A DNA stretch of 64,000 nt from an uncultured Thermodesulfobacterium sp. (GTDB lineage: Bacteria; Desulfobacterota; Thermodesulfobacteria; Thermodesulfobacteriales; Thermodesulfobacteriaceae): assembly GCA_938091335.1 (NCBI GenBank), contig CALLJG010000008.1:29609-93608 (forward strand), read 5' to 3'. Positions 33,377 through 63,007 of the stretch are shown one piece after another; position 1 is the stretch's first letter, and every line of letters starts with the position of its first letter. The notes beneath the pieces were generated by a model. The model was not told where the DNA came from. It ran no database searches and saw only the letters and a program-made list of their open reading frames with translations. The translations under genes and the position numbers were made by a program.

Positions 33377-33380
33377 TTTC

Positions 33381-33995: not shown

Positions 33996-34016
33996 CTCAG
34001 TAAACTAAGAATTTTT

Positions 34017-34973: not shown

Positions 34974-34983
34974 CGTATCTTGA

Positions 34984-36030: not shown

Positions 36031-36647
36031 TTTTTATACACCCCTATTTCCTGTACAACCAAATAGTTTTTGTCTTGATATACAATTGAAGGAACTTTCT
36101 TTATTTTAAAATATTCTAATATTTTTTTACTTGCTGCATAAACTTCTCTTGAAATAAAGTTAGAAACATCCCAAACATTGCCCTTTGTAATAATAATCAA
36201 ATTGTCATACCTATAAAGATGCCCAGACTCCTTTAGCCAATTTAACTCTTTTTCAGAAGTTCCATCCACAAAAATAAAATAAAAAGGCAACACCATATAA
36301 TCCAAAGGGTTAAAGGAGTAACCTTTAGGATATATAACCTTTCCTAAATGGTCTTTAATGTCATAAGGCAAAGTATATGTTAAGTTTAACACCCTAACAT
36401 TGTTTTCCCTTGCCTTCTCAAGTGAAAAATTAACTTTAAGATGCTTAGAAATCTGCCCTTTTAAACCTAAAAATTTCTGCTCTAGACCAGATCTTTTTAC
36501 TCTTTCTAAGATCTCCTCATATGCATCTTTTTCTTTTATTGGATAAACCACACCAAATCTCCCCACCACTATCCTCTCATCAGCTTTAGCTAACATAACG
36601 TTAAAAAGCATTGTAAATAAAAACAATTTTAGCCAAACTTTGATCAT
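36027..36647 (-). CDS. traW: TraW-like conjugative transfer protein
   Basis: GRFGVVYPIKEKDAYEEI...TYTLPYDIKDHLGKVIYPKGYSFNPLDYM...KVPSIVYQDKNYLVVQE. Confidence 0.85.
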   Translation of the reverse strand: MIKVWLKLFLFTMLFNVMLAKADERIVVGRFGVVYPIKEKDAYEEILERVKRSGLEQKFLGLKGQISKHLKVNFSLEKARENNVRVLNLTYTLPYDIKDHLGKVIYPKGYSFNPLDYMVLPFYFIFVDGTSEKELNWLKESGHLYRYDNLIIITKGNVWDVSNFISREVYAASKKILEYFKIKKVPSIVYQDKNYLVVQEIGVYKK

Positions 36648-39136: not shown

Positions 39137-39153
39137 TACTATTTACTTATTTC

Positions 39154-41151
39154 TTACAAACCTTTTTCTACTCCTGATGAACAAACAAAATCTTGTCCTG
39201 CAAGTCTCATTGCTTGTAGTGCCGTTAGCGTTTGAGGAAAATTGGTATGACATTGACAATCAGCTACTATTACCTCTCCAGGATCTAAAGGACAGTAATA
39301 CTCATTATTTGAGTTTACTCTGCAAGGTTTATATATAAACTCCTCTCTTGCCTTTGACCTAAGAGTAGGATCTACTTCAAGTTCCCTTCCAAGAGATAAT
39401 CCCTTAACTTTACATATCATCTCACAATCATCTGGTTTTCCATAACTCCCTATCATAAATTGTCGATTTGGATAACTTTGCCATGATCCTTTCTCGTATC
39501 TAATATCATCAAACCTAAGTGTTCCTGTACCTTCTTCATAATTTAGCGAAGATACTATAGCTGTTCCTCTTTTTTCAAGAGAAGCTAAATCAGGTCCTGA
39601 TGCCTTACATTTATACTTCCGTTCTATAACCCATTTACTATCACATATAACAGTTTGACCATCACAAAAATTTTGACATCGTGCAAAAGGATAAAGTCCT
39701 GTTTTTTGCCCATTTTGAACAGTTTTTACACCATCAATAATTTCTTCCCAAAGTGTACAATCTTGTCTTTCTTGTAAACTAGCACAACCATCCTCAACAT
39801 AATTATCACCAATTCCACAACCTGTTAAAGGAGTTGAAAAATAAAAATACACATAAACTGGTCTACAACCATAACCCGGATCTTTCCCAGATTGATTATA
39901 TGCAGTAAACAAGTTTGTCGAGCCTGTCAATAAGGTGTAATCTAAAGAAACCCAAATATTACAAGGTTCACAATCTCCACCTCCTGTACTTCCTGCTAGC
40001 TGACCGTTAATGTAATATCGATGTATAAAGTCATCATCGAAACAAGGATATGGTGCATAAGTATTAGTACAAAAATTCACTTTCATATTCCTAATAGCCT
40101 CACGAAATTCAGGTGTTAAGGTTATATACATTGTGTAAGTACTTGTTGGTGAATATAAAAAAAACGTAAAATAAACACAATTTGATCCACATTGCTGTAA
40201 AAAGAAAGGACCTCCACCACATTGGGATCCAGATAACACTGGATCTCTTAAAAAATCCCACCTTTTTTCTTTAACAACTTTTTTTATTACACAACTTTGG
40301 ATCTCATAAGATTCACCTATTTTAGAAGCCATCTGAGTTACCAAATAAGCTGGACTACCACTTCTTTCACTTTCTGTCTCATATGTATAAGATGCTAAAC
40401 CTGATATAAGAGAAGGAGTATCGTATAGCTGAGTTAAACCCTTCACTGCAGAACTTCCCCCTACTTGAGAACATTCAGATAAACTTTGTGCATAAAACTT
40501 AATTGTTGTTCCTTCAATTCTTGAATCAGATATAACAAGAGACCTATCTTCCCTTTGAAACGCTTGAGCTATCATGCCTCCTAAAGTAACCAAGGTATAG
40601 TTCATATTTCTCCAAAATAAATCCTGACCACAGAAATTATTTATACAATAACAACCACCTAAAGAAGTCAAATCTACTTCCTGAACCTTAAGCTGCTTAG
40701 ATGAGGTATCATAACTTAGAGTATAATAAGTACATCCTTGAAGTGTTCCAGGATCACATACACCATATCCATTCGCACATATTATCGAAATGTTGTTTAT
40801 ATTAAATTGCATATCCATTCTTCCATCATGGTTAGTATCATAAAACACCAATACATTTAAATCACCTGTAGCAGTCGGTTGAGCCATAATTGTCAAAAAC
40901 TCGCCAGATGCTGGACATAACAATTGAGCTGTAAAACTCTTTGATTGATCTATTGTTGTCATTGTAGCATTGCTGATAAGAGGATTAATATATCTTTCCT
41001 TTAAGATTCCAGCTGAACTTACTGTACTTTGAAAACTTTGATATACATTTTGTGCTGATTCTTTTGCTTGAGTTTTCTTTTCTTCAATATCACCACATAA
41101 ACCTAAATTAATACCTAAAAACACTAATATAATAATTGTCAATACTTTCAT
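39154..41151 (-). CDS. large Cys-rich secreted protein of unknown function
   Basis: Signal peptide MKVLTIIILVFLGINLGLCG; many cysteines (CYCINNFCGQD, CEPCNIW); between traN and traC; no family recognised. Confidence 0.75.
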   Translation of the reverse strand: MKVLTIIILVFLGINLGLCGDIEEKKTQAKESAQNVYQSFQSTVSSAGILKERYINPLISNATMTTIDQSKSFTAQLLCPASGEFLTIMAQPTATGDLNVLVFYDTNHDGRMDMQFNINNISIICANGYGVCDPGTLQGCTYYTLSYDTSSKQLKVQEVDLTSLGGCYCINNFCGQDLFWRNMNYTLVTLGGMIAQAFQREDRSLVISDSRIEGTTIKFYAQSLSECSQVGGSSAVKGLTQLYDTPSLISGLASYTYETESERSGSPAYLVTQMASKIGESYEIQSCVIKKVVKEKRWDFLRDPVLSGSQCGGGPFFLQQCGSNCVYFTFFLYSPTSTYTMYITLTPEFREAIRNMKVNFCTNTYAPYPCFDDDFIHRYYINGQLAGSTGGGDCEPCNIWVSLDYTLLTGSTNLFTAYNQSGKDPGYGCRPVYVYFYFSTPLTGCGIGDNYVEDGCASLQERQDCTLWEEIIDGVKTVQNGQKTGLYPFARCQNFCDGQTVICDSKWVIERKYKCKASGPDLASLEKRGTAIVSSLNYEEGTGTLRFDDIRYEKGSWQSYPNRQFMIGSYGKPDDCEMICKVKGLSLGRELEVDPTLRSKAREEFIYKPCRVNSNNEYYCPLDPGEVIVADCQCHTNFPQTLTALQAMRLAGQDFVCSSGVEKGL

Positions 41152-43688
41152 TCTTTTTTGTTTTTTTCCACCATATAGTTAATTGCTTCTTCATAACTCA
41201 TTCCAGAATGTACCAACTCTTCTATTTCTGCCACTTCGTAAGGATCAGAAGTATAGACATAGTACGAATAAGGGTCAACTGTCAATCTTAATACACTATA
41301 ACCAAATCTTTCGCTAATCATAAACAACTCCGAATACTTAGGTGCATTATATTTTACAGTAGTCATTAGATTAAATACAAAGTCATCGTCTATCGGAAGA
41401 AGTTTCTTTTCTCTTGCTTTGTGAAAATCTGAAGACTCTAGAAAAAATTTGAACGAAGAATTAGAAAGAATTACTTGCCCCACTCTACCAAATTGTTCAA
41501 AGTCTAAAATGCTTTGTGTTATTACTCCAAAACTTCCATAATATTTCCTTGCCCGTCTGTAACCTTCTTCCACAAGCTCTTGAAATGCTTTTGTATCCTG
41601 CAAAAATTGCCAAGCCTCATCTAGTAAAATAAGAGTAGGTTTCTCTCTTTTAGAGAGATATAAATCTTGCATCACAGCGTGTAAAATCACTAACACTATA
41701 ACCTCAAACAAATCTTTTAAACCCTTTAAATGTTCAAGCTCAAGCACCACAAAATCATCTTGCTTAATATCAAATGTATTTTTACCTACGAACCACTTTC
41801 CATACGCGCCAAAGCTTGTATACTTTCTCAGATTAAAAGCTAGATGCGTTGCAGCTAAACCAAAATCTTCTTCACAATAAGGCTTCTCTTCGCTACATAT
41901 CAAATCATAATCATCAAAATATTTGGTAAAATTAGCTAAATAGTCATACACATCATCTAACGTTGTCTCGTTACCTTTCATTTGATACAAAGCTCTCACT
42001 GTTGAAACTAAGATACTAACAGCACTTTCTACTGTTGTTCTACCTGGTAGCTCTCCTGTATAAACTGCTGCCATATGTGCTAGTATGTGTGCAATTATAG
42101 GAATGTCTCTATCTGGATCTCTGATTGTTTCAAAAAAATTAATACAAATGTCAGCTTCTGGATGAAAATCTATAAATTTTCCTTTAAACATGTTGCATAG
42201 TTTTTTATAGCTTCGCCCAACATCTATTATTCTAACTTTAACACCTGCTCCATAAGTATTAGTAATTAAATAATTTGCAGTAAAAGATTTACCTTTACCA
42301 GATGGGGCCACTATTATAAAATTGTAATTTGGATTTCTTCTAGAAAATATGTCAATACCTAATATCTGTCCCTTTCTTCCAAGGAAAAGCATATTAGGTT
42401 CATACATTCCAACACCATCTGTCTGTGTTGGTAACATAACTGAAATTGCCTTGGTGGGAAGTACAAAATGTCTATCCAGAAACATCAGGCTCTTTTTGTC
42501 ATTTATAAATCCAAAAGGTAAACTGTAAAAAAACAAAGGTAAATTTATAAATGTCTCTTCTTGCATTACACATCCTAATCCTTCCCAAATTCTTTTTGCT
42601 TTATATACTGCCTTTTCTACCCTTTCTTTATCTGTATCGTAAACCCACAAATTCATAAAACATGGATAAAAAATTTCCCCTCTTTCTATTTCATCAATTG
42701 CCCATACATATTCTTCTTTTTTCCTCTGTAATGACATAATAAATGAGCCAAAACTCTGTTGAGTAAATATCAAGTTTGCTTTAGTATGTATATCTACCCT
42801 TTGATTTTCAAGAACTATTGAAAAAACAACAAAAAACGGAGATGTTATCTGAGCACCATCCCCTGCTACCCCGTCGTAACTTCCTGTCGCATAATTTGCA
42901 AACAAAAAATTAATACTAACAGGTAAAGACTTAGGTGATAAACATCTAAAATACTTGTTACCTACTTTTAAAGTTTTTCCTTCTCTCTTTATCTCTGTTT
43001 CAGCTAATATAATTTGTTTACTTAACGTAGTGTGCGGTGTCCATTCAAAAATAATATCTTCACAAAATTCATCATTAAGCATTCTTCTTAACATAGACAG
43101 CAATACATGAGGTTCAGTTCTCATTGCATACAAACCCGATGCATTTAAATTTTCCTCAAAATTAGAACTTATCTCTTTCACTCTATCTACTGTTACAGAC
43201 TTTGCTGGAATTTTCAAAGAAACAAATAATCTAAAGTTACGAACAGGCATGCCAAAAGGTCCTCTTTTGTAAAATTCTACCAAAGATAAATATGCTTTTT
43301 CGATAAAAGAAGGAATTTTAGGACTGTTTTTATCTTTTATATATGCACTTAAAAGATGATCCACGTAAGGATCTGCATAGCAAATAAATTGTATGATAGA
43401 ACCCTCTGGATATATAGCTTTTAACAAATTTTGCAGAAACCCAAGACTTTGCTCTGAAGCAAAAAGTAAAGGCGTACATTCAAAAAGAATCCCTACTGTA
43501 TCATCTAAGTTGTAATAAACACCAAGCTCTTCATCATAAAAACCATAGACTAAATACTTTGAAAAAGCATTTCTATACCATAACCTTTTTAATTCAGTTT
43601 TAGTTAAAGCTTCTTTCTCATCATCATCAGGCACTAATCCTATTACATTTGCAAAAGAACAAAGTTTTGATTTTAAAAGTTTTAACAT
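41148..43688 (-). CDS. traC: T4SS ATPase TraC (F-type VirB4)
   Basis: Walker A APSGKGKSFTANYLI; Walker B PTLILLDEAWQFLQD; EEGYRRARKYYGSFGVITQS. Confidence 0.95.
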   Translation of the reverse strand: MLKLLKSKLCSFANVIGLVPDDDEKEALTKTELKRLWYRNAFSKYLVYGFYDEELGVYYNLDDTVGILFECTPLLFASEQSLGFLQNLLKAIYPEGSIIQFICYADPYVDHLLSAYIKDKNSPKIPSFIEKAYLSLVEFYKRGPFGMPVRNFRLFVSLKIPAKSVTVDRVKEISSNFEENLNASGLYAMRTEPHVLLSMLRRMLNDEFCEDIIFEWTPHTTLSKQIILAETEIKREGKTLKVGNKYFRCLSPKSLPVSINFLFANYATGSYDGVAGDGAQITSPFFVVFSIVLENQRVDIHTKANLIFTQQSFGSFIMSLQRKKEEYVWAIDEIERGEIFYPCFMNLWVYDTDKERVEKAVYKAKRIWEGLGCVMQEETFINLPLFFYSLPFGFINDKKSLMFLDRHFVLPTKAISVMLPTQTDGVGMYEPNMLFLGRKGQILGIDIFSRRNPNYNFIIVAPSGKGKSFTANYLITNTYGAGVKVRIIDVGRSYKKLCNMFKGKFIDFHPEADICINFFETIRDPDRDIPIIAHILAHMAAVYTGELPGRTTVESAVSILVSTVRALYQMKGNETTLDDVYDYLANFTKYFDDYDLICSEEKPYCEEDFGLAATHLAFNLRKYTSFGAYGKWFVGKNTFDIKQDDFVVLELEHLKGLKDLFEVIVLVILHAVMQDLYLSKREKPTLILLDEAWQFLQDTKAFQELVEEGYRRARKYYGSFGVITQSILDFEQFGRVGQVILSNSSFKFFLESSDFHKAREKKLLPIDDDFVFNLMTTVKYNAPKYSELFMISERFGYSVLRLTVDPYSYYVYTSDPYEVAEIEELVHSGMSYEEAINYMVEKNKKE

Positions 43689-43705
43689 CTATTTCACCCC
43701 TTGTG

Positions 43706-44653
43706 TTATTTTATTTTTCCTTTTTTTCTCCATAATGGTGGAGGTTCATAAGGATCAAGTGGGGTTAACCTCTGAAACTCATAAATAGTTGCTCTTGCTG
43801 GATCTTCTCCTTCGAAAATCCTTAACGCTCTATATATAGCAAAGTAAATTGTATCTAAAGCTTGGACACCACTTCCAATTGTTAAATATTGTCCGTTTCT
43901 GTGAACTATAATAATAGTAGGTGTCACTTCTATACCAAATTTGCTAATCGATTCTGGATACCTGGTTATATCAACATATTTTATGTTTATTCCATCAATG
44001 CTTGCACGATCTAAAATCCGTATCTGTGCTTCACAATAAGGACATCCTGGTTGAATAAACACAATAAGACCATAGTCATTCTTTTTACCTAGGACATATT
44101 TCAATATCTCATCCTTTTGTCTCTCAATCCTTGCCTCTATTCCTGGTACTGATACTGGATATACAGTTGTTGGAAGATACTGAGCATATTTTTGCATTGT
44201 GTAATCATACATATATGAAAAAAGTGCAGCTTTTTTTCTAGCAACATCTACCAAATTGAAATAGTAAAATAGATTTTCTTCAGTCGGCTGAGCTATTGCA
44301 CGCTCTAGATAGTAATTAAAAAGTTCTCTAAATTTTTTAGGCTCCATGTACAATAATTCCTCATAAGTGTACTCAGTTAAGGGCTTTACTTCTTCCTTAA
44401 ATTCTTTTTGTTTTTCTTGCAATTGTTTTTCTGCTTTTTCCCTTTTTACTTCATCATCTTTTTCTTTTTTCTCGGACTTAATATTTTTTTCAGTTTCATA
44501 CCACCACCAACCCCTTTTGCCAGAAGGGGTATCGTAAAAAGAAGAAGAATTTGTACTTAACACAGAACCAGTTCCAGTTTCATCAGTTTTTCCTTGTAAA
44601 ACACTTACGCTAATAAAAAAACAAATTAAAACCAATAAAAATCTCCACACCAT
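43706..44653 (-). CDS. TraF-like thioredoxin-fold conjugative transfer protein
   Basis: LIVFIQPGCPYCEAQIRILD...KFGIEVTPTIIIVHRNGQYLTIGSG. Confidence 0.85.
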   Translation of the reverse strand: MVWRFLLVLICFFISVSVLQGKTDETGTGSVLSTNSSSFYDTPSGKRGWWWYETEKNIKSEKKEKDDEVKREKAEKQLQEKQKEFKEEVKPLTEYTYEELLYMEPKKFRELFNYYLERAIAQPTEENLFYYFNLVDVARKKAALFSYMYDYTMQKYAQYLPTTVYPVSVPGIEARIERQKDEILKYVLGKKNDYGLIVFIQPGCPYCEAQIRILDRASIDGINIKYVDITRYPESISKFGIEVTPTIIIVHRNGQYLTIGSGVQALDTIYFAIYRALRIFEGEDPARATIYEFQRLTPLDPYEPPPLWRKKGKIK

Positions 44654-44657
44654 CTTT

Positions 44658-45230
44658 TTACCAAATAGGGCTTAATTTAGAAAGTACATCTTTTTTGTTT
44701 ATAAATCCTATGTAGCGAGAATCATAACTGTCTGGATGTGATGTAGCTAAAAAATAACTATCTTTAGGAACAGAAATTACACAAATTGCGTTCTCACTTA
44801 AATTCGTACAGGGCTTAAATGGTGTAACCTTTTCTCCTTTTCTTGACCTTAATTTTGCTCTTCCTATATATATACAATTGTTCCAGTCTGCTTCTTCAGA
44901 ATTACAACAATAATAGTCAAGACCAGACACTTTCAAATACATTCCTTCTGTACACATAACCCTCTTTGTAAGAAGATTACCCTTCGCTATCTTATCTGAT
45001 TCTGAACTTTTAACTAAAACAAAATCATAAAGACTTGGTTCTCCATCAACCTTTATAAAAAGGTGATACGGCACACTTCTGCCTACCGAAAAAACTAGTT
45101 TTTTACAAAGAAAATTCATTACACACAAAGATAACACTATAAAAAAAATGGCTAAAACTAATTTACTTTTCTCTAGCCTTCTCATTTTGGCTCTGTAATC
45201 GAAGTTCTTGTAGAGCCTTTTTAAGGTCAA
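44658..45230 (-). CDS. S26-family (TraF/LepB-like) signal peptidase
   Basis: GRSVPYHLF candidate Ser; LLTKRVMC candidate Lys; SYFLATSHPDSYDSRYIGFI. Confidence 0.82.
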   Translation of the reverse strand: MTLKRLYKNFDYRAKMRRLEKSKLVLAIFFIVLSLCVMNFLCKKLVFSVGRSVPYHLFIKVDGEPSLYDFVLVKSSESDKIAKGNLLTKRVMCTEGMYLKVSGLDYYCCNSEEADWNNCIYIGRAKLRSRKGEKVTPFKPCTNLSENAICVISVPKDSYFLATSHPDSYDSRYIGFINKKDVLSKLSPIW

Positions 45231-45681
45231 ATTGATAAGCTTCTTGTGGAAGCTGTGGAAGCTGAACCATTTTAACTTTGTTGTTTTTACCTAAAACTAC
45301 CTCTGCTGATAAAATAATCTTATTTTTACCCTCATTCTGAATGATAGCTATTGCCTCATCAAGCTTTCTTTTGGCTTCCTCTTGATTAATCTTACCTTGT
45401 AAGTATAGGTTTCTTAGCCCTACCAGGTAGCCTGATAAGTCTACTACAGCTATGTTTGGTATACGTTTTTCTACATAAACATGTAAAATAAACAAAGTTA
45501 TAACTATATTTATCAAACAACTGATTAAAATCACCTTCCAAGAATTTCCCTGTGGGGAAGTATCTTTTTTAGTTACTCTTTCCTTACCATCCTCATTTTC
45601 AGTTTTTAATTGTTTTTTTTCTTCCATACTTTCCACCTTATTTACCTCCTGCCTTTTTGTTTGTTCCAGCCTGTTTTTCAA
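45163..45681 (-). CDS. trbI: TrbI-like F-type conjugative transfer protein
   Basis: Single TM then IAVVDLSGYLVGLRNLYLQGKINQEEAKRKLDEAIAIIQNEGKNKIILSAEVVL. Confidence 0.75.
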   Translation of the reverse strand: MKNRLEQTKRQEVNKVESMEEKKQLKTENEDGKERVTKKDTSPQGNSWKVILISCLINIVITLFILHVYVEKRIPNIAVVDLSGYLVGLRNLYLQGKINQEEAKRKLDEAIAIIQNEGKNKIILSAEVVLGKNNKVKMVQLPQLPQEAYQFDLKKALQELRLQSQNEKAREK

Positions 45682-45961
45682 AAAACTTTAGTAACTTCTC
45701 TCCAGTAATAGAAGTCCCATTGATGTCCCACAATTCCCCAAAAATAAGAATCTTTTTCTCAGGATAAAAATAAAGCATTCCTGTGTTTTCTCCCACATAA
45801 TATATTTCATAAACATTAGGTATTTCAGATTCTTTTACCTCAACTACGTTTACATTTTTAAAAAGCGTCTGGAACTCAGACCTAACACTGTAGGATTTAT
45901 CAGTTAGCCCTGAGCAAGAAACTAAAAGCAAACAACTAAAAATAACTAACAACACCCTCAT
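45638..45961 (-). CDS. small lipoprotein of unknown function
   Basis: Lipobox LLLVSCSG; between trbI and dsbC-like genes. Confidence 0.65.
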   Translation of the reverse strand: MRVLLVIFSCLLLVSCSGLTDKSYSVRSEFQTLFKNVNVVEVKESEIPNVYEIYYVGENTGMLYFYPEKKILIFGELWDINGTSITGEKLLKFFEKQAGTNKKAGGK

Positions 45962-45971
45962 AAATCAAAAC

Positions 45972-46856
45972 CTATTTGAGAAGATTATCAAAAACCTCTT
46001 CTGGTAAGGCACCTGTAATCATTTCTATTGATTCTCCTTTTTTTAGTAAATTAAATGGAACCCCTCTGAAACCCAAAGACTTAGCTATTTGTATGTTTTC
46101 CTCTATCTTCTTTAAACCCTTATCACATGGTTTTGAAATATATTTCTCTGTGTAAGCTTTTAATTTTTCCTCATTTGTTTTCTTATCACAAAGAACACTC
46201 GTAGCTATTTTTACGCTCTCCTCTCCCAAAACTGGAGCAAATATAAAGTAAGCCTTAACTTTGTTTTCCTTTGTCTTTTTTAAAATCAGATTCTTCATTT
46301 CCTCACAATGAGGACACTTTGGATCAATAAAACTAATTATCTCAGCTTTTGCTTCTTTTCCCCAAACTACATCTGCTTTCTTTTTAAACTCATCAAAATG
46401 TTTTTTTGCATATTCTTTAATTTCCTCTTGTTTAGATTCCCCTTGCATTCTTGTTTTTTCCAGTTGGTCTATTATTTCTTTATTGATTTCTCTAAATTTA
46501 TCATTTGTAACCTGAACTACTTTTTCTCCTTCTACTTTAATCAAAGCACCAAAGATTAGATAATTGTCTCTAAAATATGCGATGTTTTTAAAAACAGGAA
46601 CTCTAGGATCTTTTACAAAAGGTTCAACTATATAAACTGCTTCACAAAAATCTAAATCCGCAAATCTTTCTACAGAGATAACTTTATATTCAATATCTCT
46701 TTCTTCAGCACCATATACTGCTTTTAATAAGTTTTCAAAACTCTCTTTATCACACTTAATTGCTAAAGCTAATCCTGTAAAATAAGTAAAAATCAACATT
46801 ACAATTGACACGATTAAAATTAAAAACTTTCTGTCCATAATGACCCCCTTTTTCAA
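45972..46856 (-). CDS. DsbC-like periplasmic thiol:disulfide isomerase
   Basis: IISFIDPKCPHCEEMKNLI; FRGVPFNLLKKGESIEMITGALPEEVF. Confidence 0.85.
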   Translation of the reverse strand: MKKGVIMDRKFLILIVSIVMLIFTYFTGLALAIKCDKESFENLLKAVYGAEERDIEYKVISVERFADLDFCEAVYIVEPFVKDPRVPVFKNIAYFRDNYLIFGALIKVEGEKVVQVTNDKFREINKEIIDQLEKTRMQGESKQEEIKEYAKKHFDEFKKKADVVWGKEAKAEIISFIDPKCPHCEEMKNLILKKTKENKVKAYFIFAPVLGEESVKIATSVLCDKKTNEEKLKAYTEKYISKPCDKGLKKIEENIQIAKSLGFRGVPFNLLKKGESIEMITGALPEEVFDNLLK

Positions 46857-52094: not shown

Positions 52095-52644
52095 GTTTTA
52101 TTTAAGCCCTAAAGAACTTAAGTTGTTTTTAGATGAAGAAACACTAAACAAACATTACAAAGAATACATAAAAAAGAAGGAAGACATTCCTATTTATGAA
52201 GTATTATCAGAACATATAGATTTAATTCTCAAAAAAAGAGCACTCATTAGAGAAATAGTAAGAGAAAACTGGCATTATGCTTCAATTAGTTTTAATCCCA
52301 ATACAAATACAAGATATCTTCATCGCACAGCCTGGAGATTAAAAAGACAAGTCCATTATCATCTAGCTCTGGCTGAACTTTTCTCAAGAGAAGTAAGAGA
52401 AATAGAAACTTTCTTAAAGATAAAAAGGGAGGTTGAGAAAAGACTAAACATAAAAAAGAGTACTCCTGAACTTTACAAACTAATTTATGAAACCATTTTA
52501 GAATATGTAGAAGAAATAAACTTCTCTGATATAAGTAACGCAAATACACTTACCAAACCAGACGAACAAAGTCGCAATGAAACTTCTCAGGAAGAAAATG
52601 TGAAGGAGGGGGAAGAGGTATGGAAAGAAAGAGTACAAACTTAG
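52084..52644 (+). CDS. hypothetical protein
   Basis: 186 aa; overlaps both neighbouring genes (translational coupling). Confidence 0.7.
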   Translation: MYPRFYLSPKELKLFLDEETLNKHYKEYIKKKEDIPIYEVLSEHIDLILKKRALIREIVRENWHYASISFNPNTNTRYLHRTAWRLKRQVHYHLALAELFSREVREIETFLKIKREVEKRLNIKKSTPELYKLIYETILEYVEEINFSDISNANTLTKPDEQSRNETSQEENVKEGEEVWKERVQT

Positions 52645-54062
52645 TTTTTGCTGATAAACTCTTTTTTATTAATACAGAAGACATAGTCGTAGATGATGGT
52701 TATTTTGAGAGTCTACCTGAGGAAGAATATAAAAAGCTAAAAGATAGTATTCTTAATTTGGGACTGATTTATCCCCTTGTTCTTCAAAAGATTGGAAAGA
52801 AATATCGCTTGATTGACGGAAGAAACAGACTAAGAGTTCTCCTAGAGCTTGGTGTAGACATTGTTCCAGCTCTTTTGATAAATGAGGAAGCTATAAAGGA
52901 ATTAGATCCTGAGCAACAAGACAATTTTGGAACTCTGGTACAGATGGATATTGAACTATACAGAAGGCATCTTGAGAACAATGTTAGGAAGCTGAAAGAT
53001 GAGGAAAGGAACCATTATTTTAAATATCTAAAGAGGCATCTAATTCAAAAAACTTACTCAATTTTAAAACTAAATGAAAGTCAAAATCCTTCTATCCAGC
53101 AAAATTTAACAGCAAAACACTTAACTGAGGTAATAGGTTTTTATTCAAACCTAAAAAAAGCAAGTAGTTTAGACTTAAATTTTCAATTAGCTAAAAGGCT
53201 TATTGACACTTCTATTAATTCTTCTATAAACCAAACTCACAGCAATAATGTTGAAGAGTTAAAAAGGCAAATAAAACAAGAATTAAGACAGATTTACGAA
53301 TTAGATCTTGAGGCTAAAACGCAAGAGCTACAGGAGAAGGAAAAAGAATTAATGTACTTAAAAGAACAGCTTAAGCAATATGAAAAGCAATATAATCAAT
53401 TAGACAAAGAATACCAGCACTTAATAAAAAAAGGCAAAAATTTAAAAGAAAAGATTGAAGAAAGGCTAAAACAAGAGTATGAAAACAAAATAGCTAAACT
53501 TGAAAGCGAATTAAGAAAAATAAAGGCTACAAAAGTACTAGAATATGGTGAAACATTTAAAGAAGTACTAGAAGAGTATAAAGAAAAATTCAAAAAAGAG
53601 CAAGAAGATTTGGAAAAAGAAAAAGCAGAAATTGAAGCTAGATATAGACAAAGGTTAGAGGAATTTAAAAAACAAGTAGAGACTGAAAAAAACAAATACG
53701 AAGCAATAAGAGTAGAACTAGAAAAAGAGAAAAGCAATTTAGCAATACTAACTGCTGAAAAAAACAGACTCACTGAGAAGGTTAACAGTTTACTTAGTAT
53801 TCTAAGCAAAGCTACTTCTTTTGACTCCTTAGAAAGTATTGTAGACACTCTTAGAAAAAATCTTGACACATTGTTGCAAATAATAATTAATAACAAGCCA
53901 ATTAGTAATGACTTGCGAATTACCAAATTTAAAAACATTTGGAATGACACAGTGATTTATTTCAAAGAAGTTGATTCTGTCATTCAGAATTGGATAAAAG
54001 AACAGGAGAGCTTTTTACAAAGCCAAAGTGAGCAAAATCTTGATACTGTTGTTAATTCTTAA
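52620..54062 (+). CDS. ParB-domain protein with long coiled coil
   Basis: SLPEEEYKKLKDSILNLGLIYPLVLQKIGKKYRLIDGRNRLRVLLELGVDIVPALLI plus ~150-aa heptad-rich coiled coil. Confidence 0.88.
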   Translation: MERKSTNLVFADKLFFINTEDIVVDDGYFESLPEEEYKKLKDSILNLGLIYPLVLQKIGKKYRLIDGRNRLRVLLELGVDIVPALLINEEAIKELDPEQQDNFGTLVQMDIELYRRHLENNVRKLKDEERNHYFKYLKRHLIQKTYSILKLNESQNPSIQQNLTAKHLTEVIGFYSNLKKASSLDLNFQLAKRLIDTSINSSINQTHSNNVEELKRQIKQELRQIYELDLEAKTQELQEKEKELMYLKEQLKQYEKQYNQLDKEYQHLIKKGKNLKEKIEERLKQEYENKIAKLESELRKIKATKVLEYGETFKEVLEEYKEKFKKEQEDLEKEKAEIEARYRQRLEEFKKQVETEKNKYEAIRVELEKEKSNLAILTAEKNRLTEKVNSLLSILSKATSFDSLESIVDTLRKNLDTLLQIIINNKPISNDLRITKFKNIWNDTVIYFKEVDSVIQNWIKEQESFLQSQSEQNLDTVVNS

Positions 54063-54071: not shown

Positions 54072-55970
54072 TTATTGTTTATTATCTCTTTCGTAATGAA
54101 TTTCTAGCTCTGCATTATCGTCCTTTAGAATTTTTTTCAAAGATTTCTGAGTATTTTGCAGACAAAGTACTATTGTTCCTTCTCTTGCTCTTGTTGTAAC
54201 TGTATGCCATTTTTTTAAAAAATCTTTTTTGTGTATGATATGTGTATCTGGTAAAATAACCACACAAAAATCACATTCTGAGCCTTGGACAGTATAGTAT
54301 TCGAGAGCATAAGCTAAGGCTATTGCATCTTTTTTAATTCTAACTTCTTCATCCACATCTTTATTTTTTATACAAATTGAAACCTCATTTTCTCCTATTA
54401 TATCGCTGATATAACCTATATCTCCTCTTGCTGCTATTATTTGTCCTAAACTATCTCTTATGTTTTTAACTACTATAACTTTATCTCCTATGCTAAGGTC
54501 TTCCTCTTTGTTTAAGACCTGTTTAGCTAATGTGTTTAGTTCTTTTGTACCAAGAGGCAAATCATGGTAAGCTGTTGCTATCATCCAGGAATAACCCCTT
54601 TTTTCAAGTTCCCTCAACAAGAATTCTAACTTATTTCTAAGCTGGTTCTCGGTTTTAAATACATACACAAAAATTTCTCGTTTTTTATATCTATAAACTT
54701 TTTCCAACTTTACCACTGCTCCTACCTTGCTAAGAAGAGGTAACACAATAGTTGAAAAAACTTCAACTCCTTCAGGTGGAGGATTTTGTTTTAGATCCCC
54801 TAATAAAACAATTTTGCTCTCTTCTTTTGTTTTTCTAAGTAAACTGATTAATCCTGAAAACCTTAACACATCAAGAGTTGATGCCTCATCAATAAAAAGA
54901 CAATCTACTCCTTTCAAAAGCTTTGGATTACTGAAGATTTTTTGAATAGTAATTCCGTCATAGAAATTTCTTGAAGCTTTTCCTGCCAATGCACAGGATA
55001 CAGTATTTCTAAATTCAGCTTTTAGACACTCACTAAGTTTTTTTGCTAATGTTGTTTTTCCAACTCCACCAGTTCCAATTATTGCTATTATTCTCTTTTC
55101 TCTAAGCAAGTTATACACAGCACTCAAATTAACTTCTTTCAATACAGGTACATTTTTCATTTCACACACTTTGCCTTTAACAAAAAAGTTTTTTACGTAT
55201 TCATTGATGTTACAGCTTATGCCTAAAGACTTACAGATAAAAAGAATTATGGCTTTTACTCTAAACCAAAAAGGTATTGTGGTGTAATAACGTTTTTTTT
55301 CAATTTTAAAGGGCACAAAATTTGTTTCTAGGATCTTTTGAAAATCTGGAATGTTCCTTACAACCAAAAATAAAGATGAGATTTTAGCTAATATTTCTTT
55401 TAGGCTTAAGTATAGTTTTCTTTTCTCTTTATATTCTTCTTCAATGAGATAAGAGACACAGGGTACTATAGCATTTGTTGGAAGTACTGAACTGTTTGAT
55501 AAAAGTTTATATATGGACAAGGCAACAGGAAAAGAAACCTTTTGTTTCTTGGCTAAATCAAAAACCAAGGCTGGACTTAGTATTAACTGAGATATATTAT
55601 TCTCATTCAAAAAAGAATCTAGTTTTGCTGCTGAAAGGATTTTTTTGACTCTTTCTTTTGCTTCTTCCTGAGTTAAAGAGGTTCTATCTAAATGCTCTAG
55701 CTGAGTATCATGAAACTGAAGTGTTGTTGCTTTAATGTAGTTTCTAAACTTACCACCATACCAATTTATTCTATGTCCATGAGCTGTAATACCCAAACCA
55801 GCAAGATAAGACAATCGCTCATAATCGGTTAAGTTCTTAAGATTTGGAAATTTCTTTTGTAAAAGGTAAGATGGAACAAAAATCTTTCTTCCTGAATGTA
55901 AAATAAAAACCAAACCGTCTTTGTACCTTTTTACATTGATTATAGTGCCTGACCTTTTACTTAACTTCAT
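54072..55970 (-). CDS. RecD-like SF1B helicase
   Basis: Walker A IAIIGTGGVGKTTLAKKL; LFIDEASTLD; LLGDLKQNPPP; EYYTVQGSECDFCVVILP; TVTTRAREGTIVLCL. Confidence 0.9.
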   Translation of the reverse strand: MKLSKRSGTIINVKRYKDGLVFILHSGRKIFVPSYLLQKKFPNLKNLTDYERLSYLAGLGITAHGHRINWYGGKFRNYIKATTLQFHDTQLEHLDRTSLTQEEAKERVKKILSAAKLDSFLNENNISQLILSPALVFDLAKKQKVSFPVALSIYKLLSNSSVLPTNAIVPCVSYLIEEEYKEKRKLYLSLKEILAKISSLFLVVRNIPDFQKILETNFVPFKIEKKRYYTTIPFWFRVKAIILFICKSLGISCNINEYVKNFFVKGKVCEMKNVPVLKEVNLSAVYNLLREKRIIAIIGTGGVGKTTLAKKLSECLKAEFRNTVSCALAGKASRNFYDGITIQKIFSNPKLLKGVDCLFIDEASTLDVLRFSGLISLLRKTKEESKIVLLGDLKQNPPPEGVEVFSTIVLPLLSKVGAVVKLEKVYRYKKREIFVYVFKTENQLRNKLEFLLRELEKRGYSWMIATAYHDLPLGTKELNTLAKQVLNKEEDLSIGDKVIVVKNIRDSLGQIIAARGDIGYISDIIGENEVSICIKNKDVDEEVRIKKDAIALAYALEYYTVQGSECDFCVVILPDTHIIHKKDFLKKWHTVTTRAREGTIVLCLQNTQKSLKKILKDDNAELEIHYERDNKQ

Positions 55971-56150: not shown

Positions 56151-56930
56151 ATGATTAAGGGTGAGACTTATATTTTTAAAGTTGAGAAAGCAGAGCCTGA
56201 CAAAGATTTTTATCTTTTAAGTTTGTATGAGGTGGAGAAGGGAAGGTATCCTTTATATTTTCTTCTTGAGAAGTTTCATTCTATAAAAGAGCACAAACCT
56301 GGAGATATTATCCTGGCGGCTTATTTAGGTGAGTTTATAGGAAAGTATCCTAAAGTAAGTCAAAAAGTTCCTTCTCATATAATAAACGTACTCAAATTAA
56401 CTATTCCTGAAGAAATTAGAAAACGATATGGCATATTTTTTAGTCGAGCAGCGGCACTGAGAAAATCACATATATCTAAAGTAGGTGTTTGGGGAGAAGC
56501 TGGGTTGTTAAGTGTTTCCCAGATAGTTGAAATTCTTAAACCTTATCTTCCTGACTTAAAAAAACATGTACCTATACCTTTTTTCATTCCAGCTGGGGTA
56601 AATGATATTCCTGAAAAAGAAAAATCTTTACCTCTAAGTTTTGTTATCAACGCACTTTTACCTTCTCCAATAGAGAATATTGTTGACTATTTATATGAAC
56701 CACATTTGAACAAAATAACCATATATTTAAAAGAGCAAGACATGCCTAGGTTTTTGTGGAAAGACTATGTAAACATAAAACTTGCAGCAAAGCTTACAAA
56801 GCTAGCCTATGTTGTTGTTAATGTAGAAAGCAACAAAGAGATAGTTGTAGACCCATACGGAGTAGCATCAAATATAAAAGAAAGTTACAATCCGATAATT
56901 GAGGCAAATACACACTTATTATACAAATAA
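56151..56930 (+). CDS. divergent NusA-like protein (S1 + two degenerate KH-like regions, no N-terminal RNAP-binding domain)
   Basis: VSQKVPSHIINVLKLTIPEEIRKRYGIFFSRAAALRKSHISKVGVW and LSFVINALLPSPIENIV...ITIYLKEQDMPRFLWKDYVNIKLAAKLTKLAYVVVN follow NusA core order and spacing. Confidence 0.65.
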   Translation: MIKGETYIFKVEKAEPDKDFYLLSLYEVEKGRYPLYFLLEKFHSIKEHKPGDIILAAYLGEFIGKYPKVSQKVPSHIINVLKLTIPEEIRKRYGIFFSRAAALRKSHISKVGVWGEAGLLSVSQIVEILKPYLPDLKKHVPIPFFIPAGVNDIPEKEKSLPLSFVINALLPSPIENIVDYLYEPHLNKITIYLKEQDMPRFLWKDYVNIKLAAKLTKLAYVVVNVESNKEIVVDPYGVASNIKESYNPIIEANTHLLYK

Positions 56931-56959: not shown

Positions 56960-57577
56960 ATGGATGAACCTAAGAGCAAAGATCAAATTTTTTTAAGTGA
57001 ACCTGAGAACGACGTTTTTCCTATAAAAACTTCTATAGGAGCTTTCAAAAAAAGAAGAGAAACTTCAAACAGAGCAGAAATGTTGTTAAAAATGATAAAA
57101 GATCCAGACAGTATAGTTCTAATTCGTCCTCCTAGGAAAACTTTACATCATGTTATTACTTTAAACAGACTTTTTGCAAGGGCAATTAATGCTTTTTTAA
57201 GTAAAAAACTAACTAGGGAGGAAATAAAAAATTTAGAAACTCAGATTCATACTCTAGCTATAACTAGTTGGAACAAGTTAGGGACAGTTTATTCTTTTGC
57301 TAATGAAAACAATCTTGAAGCATGGAGAAATTTTAATGAAAACCATGAACAAAAGGAAGCAATAATAAGGCAAAATATAAATACAGACATTTATGTGGCA
57401 ATACCTAACAGCAATGTAATAGGAATGTTATTTACTGTAATAAAGCACATGTGTATTGCAAGAAAAAAACTAAGATGGCAAGTTGATTTAAGACTAGCTG
57501 AAGTTTTATCAGATATAGCAGAACTTATTACAGGTGAGATAAAAAAGGTTATAGAAGACTTAAATAAAAAATTATAA
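56960..57577 (+). CDS. hypothetical protein
   Basis: 205 aa with AGGAGGT SD; no family recognised. Confidence 0.75.
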   Translation: MDEPKSKDQIFLSEPENDVFPIKTSIGAFKKRRETSNRAEMLLKMIKDPDSIVLIRPPRKTLHHVITLNRLFARAINAFLSKKLTREEIKNLETQIHTLAITSWNKLGTVYSFANENNLEAWRNFNENHEQKEAIIRQNINTDIYVAIPNSNVIGMLFTVIKHMCIARKKLRWQVDLRLAEVLSDIAELITGEIKKVIEDLNKKL

Positions 57578-57620: not shown

Positions 57621-58979
57621 ATGATTATTCAAAATCAAAACACGAATATCAACACAAATATCATGTTAGCAAATGATTTTTTAAGTCAAAAACTTCGTAG
57701 AATTCTTCCAGTGATGGGTAGAATCAAGATTGGTGAAAAAAGGACGACTACTACTGAAGATGGAAGAATGGTTAAGTATCCTCGGAAGTTAGACCATTTT
57801 TTGATTACAAAAAACTTTCGAGATGCGAATGGTGAGTTTATTATTGATTATGAGCTAATGGAGAAGGTTGCTGCTGTAACTGGGGAGGAGCCTAATAAAC
57901 TTACGAAGATTCCTGTGGTATTTCTTTTTAAAACGCCTGAGCTTAATCTTCAAGCATGGTTTGTCCGTTTAAGGGGTGGAAAGATTTGGTGTAAGGGAGA
58001 TGGAAAAAAGGCAAGGCGTTTAAGGGAGGATGGAAGTTTTGTGATGGTAGAATGTCCTTGTGAGTATTATACTCAGGCATTTACTATTTCTGAAAGAGAA
58101 GAAAGATGTAAACTTTATGGGAGATTAAATTGTTTTATTAGAGATGCAGATATATATGGTGGTGTATGGGTATTTAACACTACTTCAACAAGGTCTCTTT
58201 CATCAATCTGGGCACAACTCACAATGTATAGCAGACAAGGGCTTTTACCTAAGAAGGCTTTTCTTCTAACTATAAATCCTGAAAAAGTTCTGGTGCAAGA
58301 TAAACAATTGACTATTTATACAGTAGGTTTAGTTTATGATCGTAGATATGGTAGTTTAAAAGGTACTGTATTTGAAGAGGTATATAACGAAATAGAGTTA
58401 CAGGAAGAAAAAAAGTTGTTAAACATTTACATTCCAAAGATAGCAAAAGAGGAAGAGATAGCTATTGAAGAAGATTTAAAAGATGAATTTTATCCTACTC
58501 AAGAGGCACAAGAAATAGCAAATGGTGTAGAAGAAGAGGAAGAAAAAGAAAAAAGAGAAGAGAAAGAGGTAAAAGAAAAGAAAGAAGACAAAGAAGGTAA
58601 AGATTTTGAAGTCAAGGTTGTTGAATTTTTTGATAAAAAGTTAGAGGGAGTAAAAAGGAAAAAACCTATTACTGAGACTCAGATAAATGTAATTATGAAA
58701 CACATGAAAAAGCATTTTGAAAAGCTTGGTATTGATCCTTCTGAGGATCCTTATATTAAGGAACTCAAAAACTTTACGTTTTACCAAGCTGTTGAAGTTA
58801 TAGAAGCGTTAAATAAAAACAAACATCATTTAGCTTATGCAATTATTAAAAAGCATGCAAATGTTATAAAAGAAAGTAGAGAACAAGAGGGCAAATCTAA
58901 AAATGATGAAGGTCTAGAGAATTTAGAAAATTTAGGTGATTTAAATGATTTAGATGATTTAGATGACATTATTTTCTAA
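57621..58979 (+). CDS. Gp3-like (recombination-directionality-factor-like) Zn/ssDNA-binding candidate with acidic SSB-like C-terminus
   Basis: MGRIKIGEKRTTTTEDGRMVKYPRKLDHFLITKN; CPCEYYTQAFTISEREERCKLYGRLNCFI...GVWVFNTTSTRSLSSIWAQL; tail DLNDLDDLDDIIF; AGGAGGT SD. Confidence 0.65.
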   Translation: MIIQNQNTNINTNIMLANDFLSQKLRRILPVMGRIKIGEKRTTTTEDGRMVKYPRKLDHFLITKNFRDANGEFIIDYELMEKVAAVTGEEPNKLTKIPVVFLFKTPELNLQAWFVRLRGGKIWCKGDGKKARRLREDGSFVMVECPCEYYTQAFTISEREERCKLYGRLNCFIRDADIYGGVWVFNTTSTRSLSSIWAQLTMYSRQGLLPKKAFLLTINPEKVLVQDKQLTIYTVGLVYDRRYGSLKGTVFEEVYNEIELQEEKKLLNIYIPKIAKEEEIAIEEDLKDEFYPTQEAQEIANGVEEEEEKEKREEKEVKEKKEDKEGKDFEVKVVEFFDKKLEGVKRKKPITETQINVIMKHMKKHFEKLGIDPSEDPYIKELKNFTFYQAVEVIEALNKNKHHLAYAIIKKHANVIKESREQEGKSKNDEGLENLENLGDLNDLDDLDDIIF

Positions 58980-59002: not shown

Positions 59003-59860
59003 ATGGCAAATGAATTTACGTTATCGTTTCAAAAGATTAATGCTTATTCAAGGTGTGGGTTGCAGTATTATTTCAGGTATATAGAGAATCTTAAGATTCC
59101 TCCGACTCCTAATGTAGCTGTAGGTTCTGCTGTACACCAGGCTACTGAGGTTTTTTACTTAAAGAAGAAGGAAAAGAGGGAAAATCCCAAGTTAGAGTTA
59201 ATGTTAGACACTTATAGTGACACTTTGGAGAATTTATTTTTAGAGGAGATGCTTCTTGATGATGATGAAATGGCAAAGGGGAAAGACAAGATCAAGAGTG
59301 AGTTAAAGGATGCTGGTATTAGGGTATTAAGGGTATATTACAATCAAAAAGCGATTAATTTAGACCCTCTGTATGTAGAGGAGGAGTTTTTATTATCTCT
59401 TGAGAGAGTAGCACGTGAGATGATTCTTGAAGACAAGCATTTAAGTATAGATCCTAACAAATTAGTGGGAGTTTATGTTTTAGGGTATGTAGATCTAGTA
59501 AGTACAGACAATAGAGTTATAGACTTAAAGACCAGAAGGTCAAGACCAGGGAGTGATGAAGTTGAAAAATCTCAACAGTTAACTATTTATGCTCTTGGAT
59601 TTAGGGAATTGTTAGGTAGATTACCTGAAAAAGTGGTATTGGAGAACTTAATTTTACCGCACAATAAATCATCTATGGGAAGTATAGTTAGTTTAGAATC
59701 TATGAGAACTGAGGAAGACATAAAGAGACTTCTTAGAAGAGTGGTTAGGGTAGTAGATGGTATAAGGAAAGGGGTCTTTATTCCTCCAGATCAAGGATCC
59801 TGGGCTTGCAAGTATTGTGGATATAGAAGGTTAAACATCTGTAAAGAGTATCTACATTAA
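59003..59860 (+). CDS. PD-(D/E)XK nuclease, Cas4/RecB-like with Fe-S cysteines
   Basis: LSFQKINAYSRCGLQYYFRY; VLGYVDLVSTDNRVIDLKTRR; CKYCGYRRLNIC. Confidence 0.88.
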   Translation: MANEFTLSFQKINAYSRCGLQYYFRYIENLKIPPTPNVAVGSAVHQATEVFYLKKKEKRENPKLELMLDTYSDTLENLFLEEMLLDDDEMAKGKDKIKSELKDAGIRVLRVYYNQKAINLDPLYVEEEFLLSLERVAREMILEDKHLSIDPNKLVGVYVLGYVDLVSTDNRVIDLKTRRSRPGSDEVEKSQQLTIYALGFRELLGRLPEKVVLENLILPHNKSSMGSIVSLESMRTEEDIKRLLRRVVRVVDGIRKGVFIPPDQGSWACKYCGYRRLNICKEYLH

Positions 59861-59929: not shown

Positions 59930-62900
59930 ATGTTTGAAAAAGAGCATAAATTACAAAAATTTGTTGATGAGAGATTATGCGTAAAATGTCCTTTAAATGG
60001 CAAAGTCAAGGTTCCTTGGGAAATAGAGGGATTTACTTTTTACGAGCACATAAAGACTGTTAGACCTATACCAGATGGTTATTACATTGTATTTGTAGGA
60101 GAGGCACCAGGAGAGACTGAAGAAGCACAAATAAAGCCATTTGTAGGCAAAGCTGGAAAACTTTTAAGAAGTATTATAAACACAATAAGAAATAAAAATC
60201 CTGAGTTTTCAAATCTTAAAATCATGATTACCAATGCTTGCAAATGTAAACCTACTGACAAAAGAGGCTCTATAAGGGCACCAAGTGTTGAAGAGATTAA
60301 TATTTGTAAAAAAAACCTCATAAATGATTTAAATCTAATCAAGCCTGTTCTTATTGTAGCTTTAGGTAAAAGTGCAAGTGTTGCTTTAGAGGTTCCTGAA
60401 GCAAGTAAAAAGCTTGAAGCCTTAAGAGGGTGTTCTTATCAAACAAAGTATGGGAAAGTATTTGTAACGTATCACCCTTCAGCAGTTATAAGAAATAGAA
60501 TGAAAAATTTTAAAATTTTTGAACATGACTTGATAAATGCGTTTAAGATTGCTTATAACAGTTATCTAAGTCTTAGTAAGCTTGATCAAGCTAATTCAAA
60601 TGTTTCAGATCTTAAATTTATTACCAAGGTTATCACACAAACTGAAGAACTTTTAGAAGAATGGAAAAAATTTAAAACATTATTTCAAACTAACAATGCT
60701 GTTATTACAGCTTTTGATTATGAGACTGTACCTTTTAGTTGGGAATTTTTCCCAAAGTTTGATATAAAGTTAGCAAATCTTGGTATAGATCCTTTTTCAG
60801 AGTTGTCTCACATAGCTTACGTTTCGATTGCTTACAAAAATAACTCTGAGATTTACTCATTTTCTTTTCCAGTGAAAGCTTATACTATGATGAATAAAAT
60901 AAAAGACTATATAGCTAATAAAATAGACAAATTTAAAGAAGAAGCAAGTTATATAGTTGAAAAAATTTCCAAAATCTCAAGTACTTATGATAAAAACACA
61001 AGAGAAAGCTTAAAAATGAAGTTATTTTTTTTATATCAAGAATATGGTTTTATTTCTCAAGTAATTGAGGACATTGAAAATGTAATACTGACTAGCAAAA
61101 GTGAGTTAGAGGTTAAAGTTAAGGTAAGTAGGTTTTTAAAAGATGTCACAGCAAGTTATATCTCATTTTTAGCTAAGGTTGAGCAATTCATAAATGAATA
61201 TGAAAAAGTTTATAGGATAGATGAAAATCTGGCTGAGAAAATTTTAAGAAAGTATCTTACAGAGAGAGCTATTTATAGAATAGCTCAAAATCCTCAATTT
61301 GAGATATCTTTTTCTATAATGAAATTTGGAATAGAACCGTTAATTGGGAGTGGTACTGATATTCTTGATTATCTTTTAGGATATAACACACATGCTCTGG
61401 AAGAGCTTGAAAAGAGATATTTACATGATTCTATTATAGGTTTTGTTGGAAAGAGAGAAAGTTTTAAAAGAGCTAATCAATCTTTGAAAGATTTTTCTCT
61501 ATATAATGCGTTAGACTCAGCTAAAACACTTGCTATTTATTTTAAAGAAAGTGAGATAATTAAGACTTTTAAAGACAAAAAGGTTTACAATAGTTATACA
61601 GATGTAAATCTTACCCATGCTATAAAGTGTGCAAATGAGTTTATTTCTAAAATAATTATTCCTTTTTCAGTTCATGCTTATTTAAATGGGTTAAAAATAG
61701 ATCTAGAAAAAAACATTGAACTAACGAAAAAGGTTTATTTTTACATAAACCAACTTCTTGAAAAAATAGAGAAAAAAACAGGAACCAAAAACATAAGAAC
61801 AGATGAGTTTAGAGAAATACTTTTTGAGTTAACTAAAGGTCAAATCTTGTTAACAGGGAAAAGTAACAAGCCTTCAATTTCAGAGGAGGCTTTAAAGTTT
61901 GTATATGAAAATGCAGAGGATAAAAGTTTAAAGGAACTTGTAATTTATGTCCATTCTGTTTACAAGTATGAAGGTTTATTATCTAGATATTTGGAAAAGT
62001 ATCCTTTTTACATAAACCTAGCAACAGGTAGAATTCATCCAAAATACAATCCCACTAAAACAGCAACTGGGAGGCTTTCTTGTAGTGATCCAAACATTCA
62101 GCAGATTCCAAGAGAACCTTTTAAAAGCTGTACAAATTGTTATGTGGTTCCTTTTGATCAGGAAAAAGACATATGTCCAATATGTGAAGGCAAGCTTAAT
62201 GTGCTTGTAGATTTTAGAGAGGTATTTGTTAGTGATCCTAGAAACTGTTTGATAATGGCAGATTATAGTCAAATAGAGATGGCTATACTTGCGGAGCTTT
62301 CTAAAGACGAAAACTTAATTACTGCCATAAACAATAAACTTGACATGCATAGTTACAATGCTTCAAATGTATATAAAGTTCCTTATGAAGAAATAGTTGA
62401 AAAGAAAAAAACAGATCAAAACATAGCAAGACTTAGACAAAATGCTAAGAAAGTAACGTTTGCTGTAATTTATGGGGCAAGTGAGGAGGGTATTTCTTCG
62501 AAGGAAAAGATAGGTATTGAGGAGGCAAGAGAGATAATAGAGGTTTTTTACAGTAAGCATCCCAACACAAAGACATGGATAAATCGTATGCATAATGAAG
62601 CTCTTGAAAAAGGGGTGGTATTGGTACCTACAGGAAGACCAAGATGGTTTCCTGAAAGTTTAGATCTTATGGATGAAAACACAAAGAATTTAATAAAGAG
62701 AAGAGCTCAAAACACACCTATCCAAGGTTTTGCATCTGATATAAATTTAATAACCTGCGAAATTTTGAGAAAAAAGTATGGTTTAAAAGTAATAGGTGCA
62801 ATTCATGATAGTATTCTTATAGAAGAGTCAGAAGATAAAGTTTCTGAAATTGAAACCAAAATCCAAAATGCACTTATTGATACAATAAAGCTGAGAGAAA

Positions 62901-63007
62901 GTCTTATCTTTTTAGGACTAAAATTTGTACCCAAGATATTAAATAACTTATCAGTTTTACTAAACATTGAAACCAAAATTGGTAAAACTTGGAAAGAAAT
63001 AAAATAA
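59930..63007 (+). CDS. family-4 uracil-DNA glycosylase - family-A DNA polymerase fusion
   Basis: UDG: CVKCPLNGK, VGEAPGETEEAQIKPFVGKAG, YHPSAVIRN. Exo-like: FDYETVPF...YNALDSAKTLAIYF. Pol: TGRLSCSDPNIQQIPRE, MADYSQIEMAILAELS, RQNAKKVTFAVIYGAS, AIHDSILIE. Confidence 0.95.
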   Translation: MFEKEHKLQKFVDERLCVKCPLNGKVKVPWEIEGFTFYEHIKTVRPIPDGYYIVFVGEAPGETEEAQIKPFVGKAGKLLRSIINTIRNKNPEFSNLKIMITNACKCKPTDKRGSIRAPSVEEINICKKNLINDLNLIKPVLIVALGKSASVALEVPEASKKLEALRGCSYQTKYGKVFVTYHPSAVIRNRMKNFKIFEHDLINAFKIAYNSYLSLSKLDQANSNVSDLKFITKVITQTEELLEEWKKFKTLFQTNNAVITAFDYETVPFSWEFFPKFDIKLANLGIDPFSELSHIAYVSIAYKNNSEIYSFSFPVKAYTMMNKIKDYIANKIDKFKEEASYIVEKISKISSTYDKNTRESLKMKLFFLYQEYGFISQVIEDIENVILTSKSELEVKVKVSRFLKDVTASYISFLAKVEQFINEYEKVYRIDENLAEKILRKYLTERAIYRIAQNPQFEISFSIMKFGIEPLIGSGTDILDYLLGYNTHALEELEKRYLHDSIIGFVGKRESFKRANQSLKDFSLYNALDSAKTLAIYFKESEIIKTFKDKKVYNSYTDVNLTHAIKCANEFISKIIIPFSVHAYLNGLKIDLEKNIELTKKVYFYINQLLEKIEKKTGTKNIRTDEFREILFELTKGQILLTGKSNKPSISEEALKFVYENAEDKSLKELVIYVHSVYKYEGLLSRYLEKYPFYINLATGRIHPKYNPTKTATGRLSCSDPNIQQIPREPFKSCTNCYVVPFDQEKDICPICEGKLNVLVDFREVFVSDPRNCLIMADYSQIEMAILAELSKDENLITAINNKLDMHSYNASNVYKVPYEEIVEKKKTDQNIARLRQNAKKVTFAVIYGASEEGISSKEKIGIEEAREIIEVFYSKHPNTKTWINRMHNEALEKGVVLVPTGRPRWFPESLDLMDENTKNLIKRRAQNTPIQGFASDINLITCEILRKKYGLKVIGAIHDSILIEESEDKVSEIETKIQNALIDTIKLRESLIFLGLKFVPKILNNLSVLLNIETKIGKTWKEIK

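Follow-up and report, generated by a model that had tools for sequence, protein, structure and literature searches.

On the evidence of its gene content, the window, a stretch of 64,000 nucleotides from an uncultured Thermodesulfobacterium sp., carries an integrated F-type conjugative element, and its host is a small-genome bacterium. The sequence-only reading had proposed that a mobile element here carries a NusA paralogue, in agreement with the tRNA-Ala gene, the tyrosine integrase and the F-type T4SS genes found in the window. The features discussed below are, in window coordinates:

22435..22507, plus strand: tRNA-Ala (GGC), probable integration site
22767..23957, plus strand: tyrosine integrase, sharing 40% identity with the integrase encoded on the L058 element
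24926..46856, minus strand: F-type T4SS operon, with TraG, H, V (assigned by position), B, E, L, TrbC, U, W, N, C, F and a signal peptidase
52620..54062, plus strand: ParB-like protein, in relatives a conserved neighbour of the NusA-like gene and its partner
54072..55970, minus strand: RecD-like helicase, divergent neighbour, with a homologue near the pair in L082
56053..56141, plus strand: leader with a perfect 13-nt inverted repeat (arms 56053-56065 and 56129-56141)
56151..56930, plus strand: NusA-like stand-alone S1-KH1-KH2 protein, 259 aa (open reading frame with ATG start, NusA homology, family)
56157..56366, plus strand: S1 domain, approximately aa 3-72, collinear with NusA S1 and with five strands in the model
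56430..56669, plus strand: KH1 region, approximately aa 94-173, GXXG absent (alignment, model)
56670..56828, plus strand: KH2 region, approximately aa 174-226 (TIGR01953 match, hhalign)
56757..56768, plus strand: WKDY replacing the KH2 GXXG, conserved in L093 (G448)
56960..57577, plus strand: conserved partner protein, 205 aa, predicted duplicated strand-helix-helix fold (profile, model; no Pfam family)
57621..58979, plus strand: Gp3-like protein (PF18897, E=9e-30), same operon as the NusA-like gene
59003..59860, plus strand: PD-(D/E)XK exonuclease, same operon
59930..63007, plus strand: uracil-DNA glycosylase fused to a family A DNA polymerase (UDG-PolA), same operon

The T4SS operon spans about 22 kb and is followed by genes for a topoisomerase IA and a Cro/C1-type regulator, then by the ParB-like gene and the RecD-like helicase. 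Separately from it, the NusA-like gene opens a plus-strand replication/recombination operon that continues with the partner, the Gp3-like protein, the exonuclease and the UDG-PolA fusion. Among the window genes scanned we recognised no relaxase, and no second attachment site was found in the assembly, where the contig stops at the window end and the tRNA 3′ end is present once. Two open reading frames (51414-52094 and 52084-52644), whose position fits that of such genes in relatives, were considered as sigma-like and HTH genes and set aside, their profile matches having E-values of about 0.04 or worse. As separate observations, the UDG-PolA fusion (59930-63007) is a 1025-aa protein with an N-terminal UDG domain carried on a conjugative element, and a long GC-rich inverted repeat at 47145-47195 (AAGGTCCCCACCCCCACG ... 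GTGGGTGGTGGGGGACCTT) lies where the T4SS and topoisomerase genes diverge and is possibly a terminator or regulatory structure.

By sequence comparison and predicted fold, the 259-aa protein is a homologue of the S1-KH1-KH2 core of NusA and lacks the N-terminal domain (NTD) that binds RNA polymerase. Taken alone, it matched nothing in Pfam or PHROG; its best NCBIfam match was NusA (TIGR01953; E=2.2e-4, 20.4 bits, over KH2), and phmmer against the PDB returned NusA 6j9e as the best and only sequence match, at E=2.1. A profile of six family members, aligned by hhalign to two NusA proteins, gave E=6.5e-15 at a probability of 98.4%, the alignment being collinear over S1-KH1-KH2 (NusA residues 134-349). 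All of the 17 best PDB matches of the AlphaFold2 model (pLDDT 73.5, pTM 0.64, with weak stretches near residues 148-163 and beyond 239) were NusA, at E=2.6e-13 to 5e-9. The fold matches, the hhalign result and the tree described below rule out chance similarity to NusA. This core had been proposed from the sequence alone; sequence profiles, predicted fold and tree agree on it, profile and predicted structure both having been checked for S1-KH-KH architecture and both returning it. The NTD is likewise absent as proposed: the reading frame begins at S1, and since only 18 in-frame open codons lie upstream of the ATG at 56151 (whole open frame, 277 aa), a domain of about 125 aa is not encodable in the window gene.

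The protein is NusA-derived, yet outside the NusA equivalog, because it lacks the NTD and the GXXG loops and lies far under the TIGR01953 equivalog cut-off (20.4 versus 253.4 bits; the best relative reaches 60.1 bits). Its host encodes a separate, full-length NusA elsewhere (G000:C5, L021; 392.9 bits to TIGR01953). The S1-KH-KH cores also differ in net charge, with a family mean of +9 versus −0.3 for the NusA cores of related genomes.

The first GXXG, that of KH1, had been reported missing, and we find it lost in every family member; the KH1 region of the window protein further contains a small insertion (about aa 155-162) that is larger in L093. The change of the KH2 loop from GKxG to WKDY had also been read correctly and is specific to the window copy and its nearest relative, L093. 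In most members this loop is GKGG, GRKG, GRHG, GKRG or GKKG, and in the Nitrospira-labelled copy L063 it is GPKA, another degenerate form; GXXG is retained in all other family copies that include KH2. WKDY lies within WKDYVN[IV]KLA[AS]KLTK, the best conserved stretch between the window protein and L093 at an overall identity of about 40%; in the window-type branch the KH2 loop has thus been remade and retained rather than lost through decay. In this branch RNA might be contacted via S1 or other surfaces, or the WKDY loop might contact a protein.

A search for relatives in 398 genomes of the host's phylum recovered stand-alone proteins some 209 aa long, with E-values from 5e-12 to 9e-8, together with a weaker match (E=4e-3). 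Against TIGR01953 these relatives score E=2.6e-12 to 1.7e-16, most of them in alignments spanning S1-KH1-KH2. Further relatives were recovered with an intermediate query from the phylum sample, and another lies in G448, a genome from the host's own family, with 41% identity to the window protein. Stand-alone S1-KH-KH proteins occur across several families within this phylum (in one family, 15 of 39 genomes have a match) and in one MAG labelled Nitrospira japonica; a scan of named genomes, that MAG among them, also placed relatives in Deltaproteobacteria MAGs and in Syntrophorhabdus sp. PtaB.Bin184. The window protein had no match in the plasmid collection; with the relative L007 as query, seven plasmid records were found, five annotated nusA, one featureless under the match and one unannotated. 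The phage collection returned one unannotated record (MT835665, 24% identity), and the viral contigs no match.

In a tree that is unrooted and has long branches, such that the inner order and the placement of the window protein inside the family are uncertain, the 23 NusA cores of the phylum fall on one side of a branch of length 3.34 with 100/100 support; by sequence, the NusA-like proteins form a group separate from NusA. One supported group among the element copies unites the chromosomal copies of a single genus. These copies, found in almost every species sampled from genus g248 (L080, L081, L083, L084 and L087), occupy a conserved site with no partner and no T4SS, and therefore have some function independent of both. 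In most cases a probable succinate dehydrogenase/fumarate reductase operon lies nearby, as does a gene for a 163-aa protein (MGDYDDERPDWRELDRRRD...). Most measured pairs of relatives are under purifying selection: dN/dS was 0.09-0.12 between chromosomal copies, 0.13 for L059 versus L060 and 0.46 for L053 versus L082, five of the six pairs thus falling at 0.09-0.13.

On elements, the NusA-like gene is linked to the partner gene downstream. A profile of the relatives' partners, from which the window protein was excluded, ranked 56960-57577 first among the window open reading frames (E=4.5e-7; next, 0.076). An eight-row profile that included the window protein gave strong matches in seven of the 398 genomes, every one of them close to a NusA-like gene and on the same strand; two further NusA-like carriers in this sample sit at contig ends, and the partner was absent from four searched genomes with chromosomal NusA-like copies. 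An eighth, weak match (G268, L102:1522-1914, E=2e-6) is a 130-aa protein encoded directly downstream of a TraH-like open reading frame and is a possible single-unit homologue of the partner. The partner model (pLDDT 78.5, pTM 0.74) shows a duplicated strand-helix-helix fold. Its highest-probability and only suggestive PDB fold match is AcaB (6n8a; probability 0.80, TM 0.44), a transfer activator of IncC plasmids (PMC11493245), but at E=0.53 and an rmsd of 7.5 we treat this likeness, which concerns the partner and its predicted fold, as a lead and not as an assignment. The viral fold library contained nothing similar, and the partner sequence profile matched only designed coiled coils and chance-level entries of the PDB.

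In several relatives, the NusA-like gene opens an F-type T4SS operon. The order in L057 is NusA-like gene, partner, VirB1-like gene and TraB, followed by TraV-like and TraC genes of an F-type T4SS, and in L063 it is NusA-like gene, partner, a 155-aa open reading frame, TraB, TraV-like and TraC. L058 has a VirB1-like transglycosylase gene after the partner. In L082, which shares the divergent helicase of the window, the NusA-like gene is preceded by an SSB gene and heads T4SS genes with extra genes in between. L056 has an RRXRR gene (2443-3651; PF14239, E=6e-47), probably an insertion, between the NusA-like gene and the partner. ParB-like and often sigma-70 region 2-like genes lie near the pair on other elements, the latter at L057 8635-9183, L058 13519-14022, L059 3935-4408, L060 11992-12498, L062 4194-5309 and L063 6334-7044; they were identified by Pfam in three of four relatives tested (E=1.4e-6 to 5e-8) and in the rest by BLAST to these, and are possible element-specific sigma factors.

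The leader of the NusA-like gene contains a perfect 13-nt inverted repeat whose right arm touches the Shine-Dalgarno region, leaving room for what may be autoregulation. Such a repeat was reached by 4 of 400 dinucleotide shuffles and the RNA fold has a z-score of −1.98; its meaning is suggestive only. The inverted repeats in the leaders of relatives measure only 5-10 nt. A nut-like repeat common to the leader and the T4SS promoter was considered and rejected, the leader 13-mer having no other exact site in the window, and the Rfam scan returned tRNA only.

We put at about 0.5 the probability that the window gene codes for an element-borne factor dedicated to transcription elongation/antitermination and descended from the NusA RNA-binding core; the family at large probably helps RNA polymerase to read long element operons. 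The NusA-like protein would bind the nascent transcript of element operons, the partner would bring it to RNA polymerase in place of the NusA NTD, and the action of host NusA, Rho and NusG would be modified or displaced, allowing read-through of long element operons. T4SS operons would be the targets in relatives; the window pair would act in cis on the replication/recombination operon and perhaps also, in trans, on the T4SS operon of 22 kb. We count in favour of antitermination the NusA homology, the linkage to the partner, the T4SS-head position, the nearby sigma-like genes, the basic core and the dN/dS values. The sequence-only reading had offered antitermination, competition with NusA and a fold reused in replication; because of the operon-head position in L057, L063 and L082, antitermination is the best of these three ideas, albeit unproven. 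Counted against it are the window gene not standing at the head of the T4SS operon, the partner-less chromosomal copies, and the loss of the NTD, NusA's main anchor, for which we infer the partner as replacement. Intrinsic-terminator-like sites in the T4SS region, moreover, are only mildly above chance (14 versus 7.9 expected, sd 3.0, both strands), and the degenerate KH2 loop argues against RNA binding via KH2. More tentatively, core and NTD-replacing partner may together form a two-protein factor that engages the polymerase at element operons and makes it resistant to terminators and Rho, with WKDY in the window-type branch as a protein-contact loop; this would make the factor a NusA-derived counterpart to the NusG paralogues RfaH and ActX.

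Two other readings, each unlikely and the first by a hair less so, keep the protein on RNA or in the transcription machinery. Protein and partner might bind element mRNA leaders, including their own, and control translation rather than elongation: the S1-KH-KH protein is basic and the leader repeat extends to the ribosome-binding site, but the short repeats in relatives' leaders, the modest fold z-score of the window leader and the single occurrence of its 13-mer in the window speak against such post-transcriptional control. Alternatively, the protein might act as a decoy or competitor of host NusA that occupies NusE/S10 or rRNA-leader sites and dampens NusA- and Rho-dependent silencing of foreign DNA, with effects genome-wide and not confined to a particular operon. 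As in a dominant-negative fragment, the S1-KH1-KH2 core is retained and the polymerase anchor gone, and foreign DNA is silenced by NusA with Rho in E. coli, according to a reference listed in PMC7593976. The family-wide loss of the KH1 GXXG and the WKDY loop here nevertheless oppose mere copying of NusA's RNA contacts, the conserved linkage to the partner and to operon heads points to a task of local scope, and a chromosomal copy near-universal among the sampled species of one genus and under purifying selection would be odd for a host antagonist.

Less probable still is a NusA fold reused in DNA processing, in which the S1 and KH domains would bind single-stranded nucleic acid during replication or conjugative DNA handling. 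The operon opened in the window holds the exonuclease and UDG-PolA, the RecD-like helicase adjoins it, and L082 has its SSB gene before the NusA-like gene; the downstream neighbours in L057, L063 and L058, however, are T4SS or cell-wall genes, with no replication genes among them. That the gene is a decaying NusA fragment without function is very improbable: it is short and divergent, has lost its GXXG loops and sits on a very long branch, but the frames are intact in many genomes, dN/dS is near 0.1 in most measured pairs, and WKDYVNxKLAxKLTK is conserved at an overall identity of about 40%; decay of the window gene is largely refuted by this conservation around WKDY and by the selection acting on its relatives.

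Specialised NusG paralogues are well known, whereas NusA is commonly regarded as one housekeeping factor. The family shares with bacterial NusA (TIGR01953) the collinear S1-KH1-KH2 fold and the FVxNALxP and KLxxKLT motifs; the window protein differs in having neither NTD nor acidic repeats, in the loss of both the KH1 and KH2 GXXG, in being element-borne and in its partner gene. Archaeal NusA-like proteins (TIGR01952; NusA2 9fjl, 9f9u) resemble the family in being short KH-KH proteins without an NTD, and relatives L002 and L007 have weaker TIGR01952 matches (E about 6e-6); to our knowledge, however, the archaeal proteins lack the S1 domain, which is present in the window family, and bacterial NusA matches better.

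Long conjugation operons are documented, as are elements with antitermination factors of their own, including NusG paralogues (PMC7593976, PMC7819879), conAn (PMC8955417) and Tn916 (PMC11658703). The NusG paralogues ActX, RfaH, LoaP and TaA, which occur on conjugative plasmids and in long operons, pilus operons among them (PMC7819879, PMC7593976), are likewise specialised copies of an elongation factor devoted to long operons, but have the NusG fold and no evolutionary relation to the NusA-like family. conAn of pLS20 heads a long conjugation operon (PMC8955417), as does the NusA-like gene in L057 and L063; it is, however, a protein plus RNA system of Gram-positive plasmids, and the likeness is one of gene position, not of ConAn1 sequence. 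In the literature searched, which misses most subscription journals, we found no description of a NusA paralogue carried by a mobile element, and within that literature the stand-alone NusA-core family is so far undescribed.

A mobile NusA core that lacks the domain for binding polymerase offers a natural experiment on the action of S1-KH-KH by itself, and it bears on how conjugative elements outside model lineages transcribe long operons. The partner-less chromosomal copies of one genus, in turn, suggest that hosts may take such a factor over.
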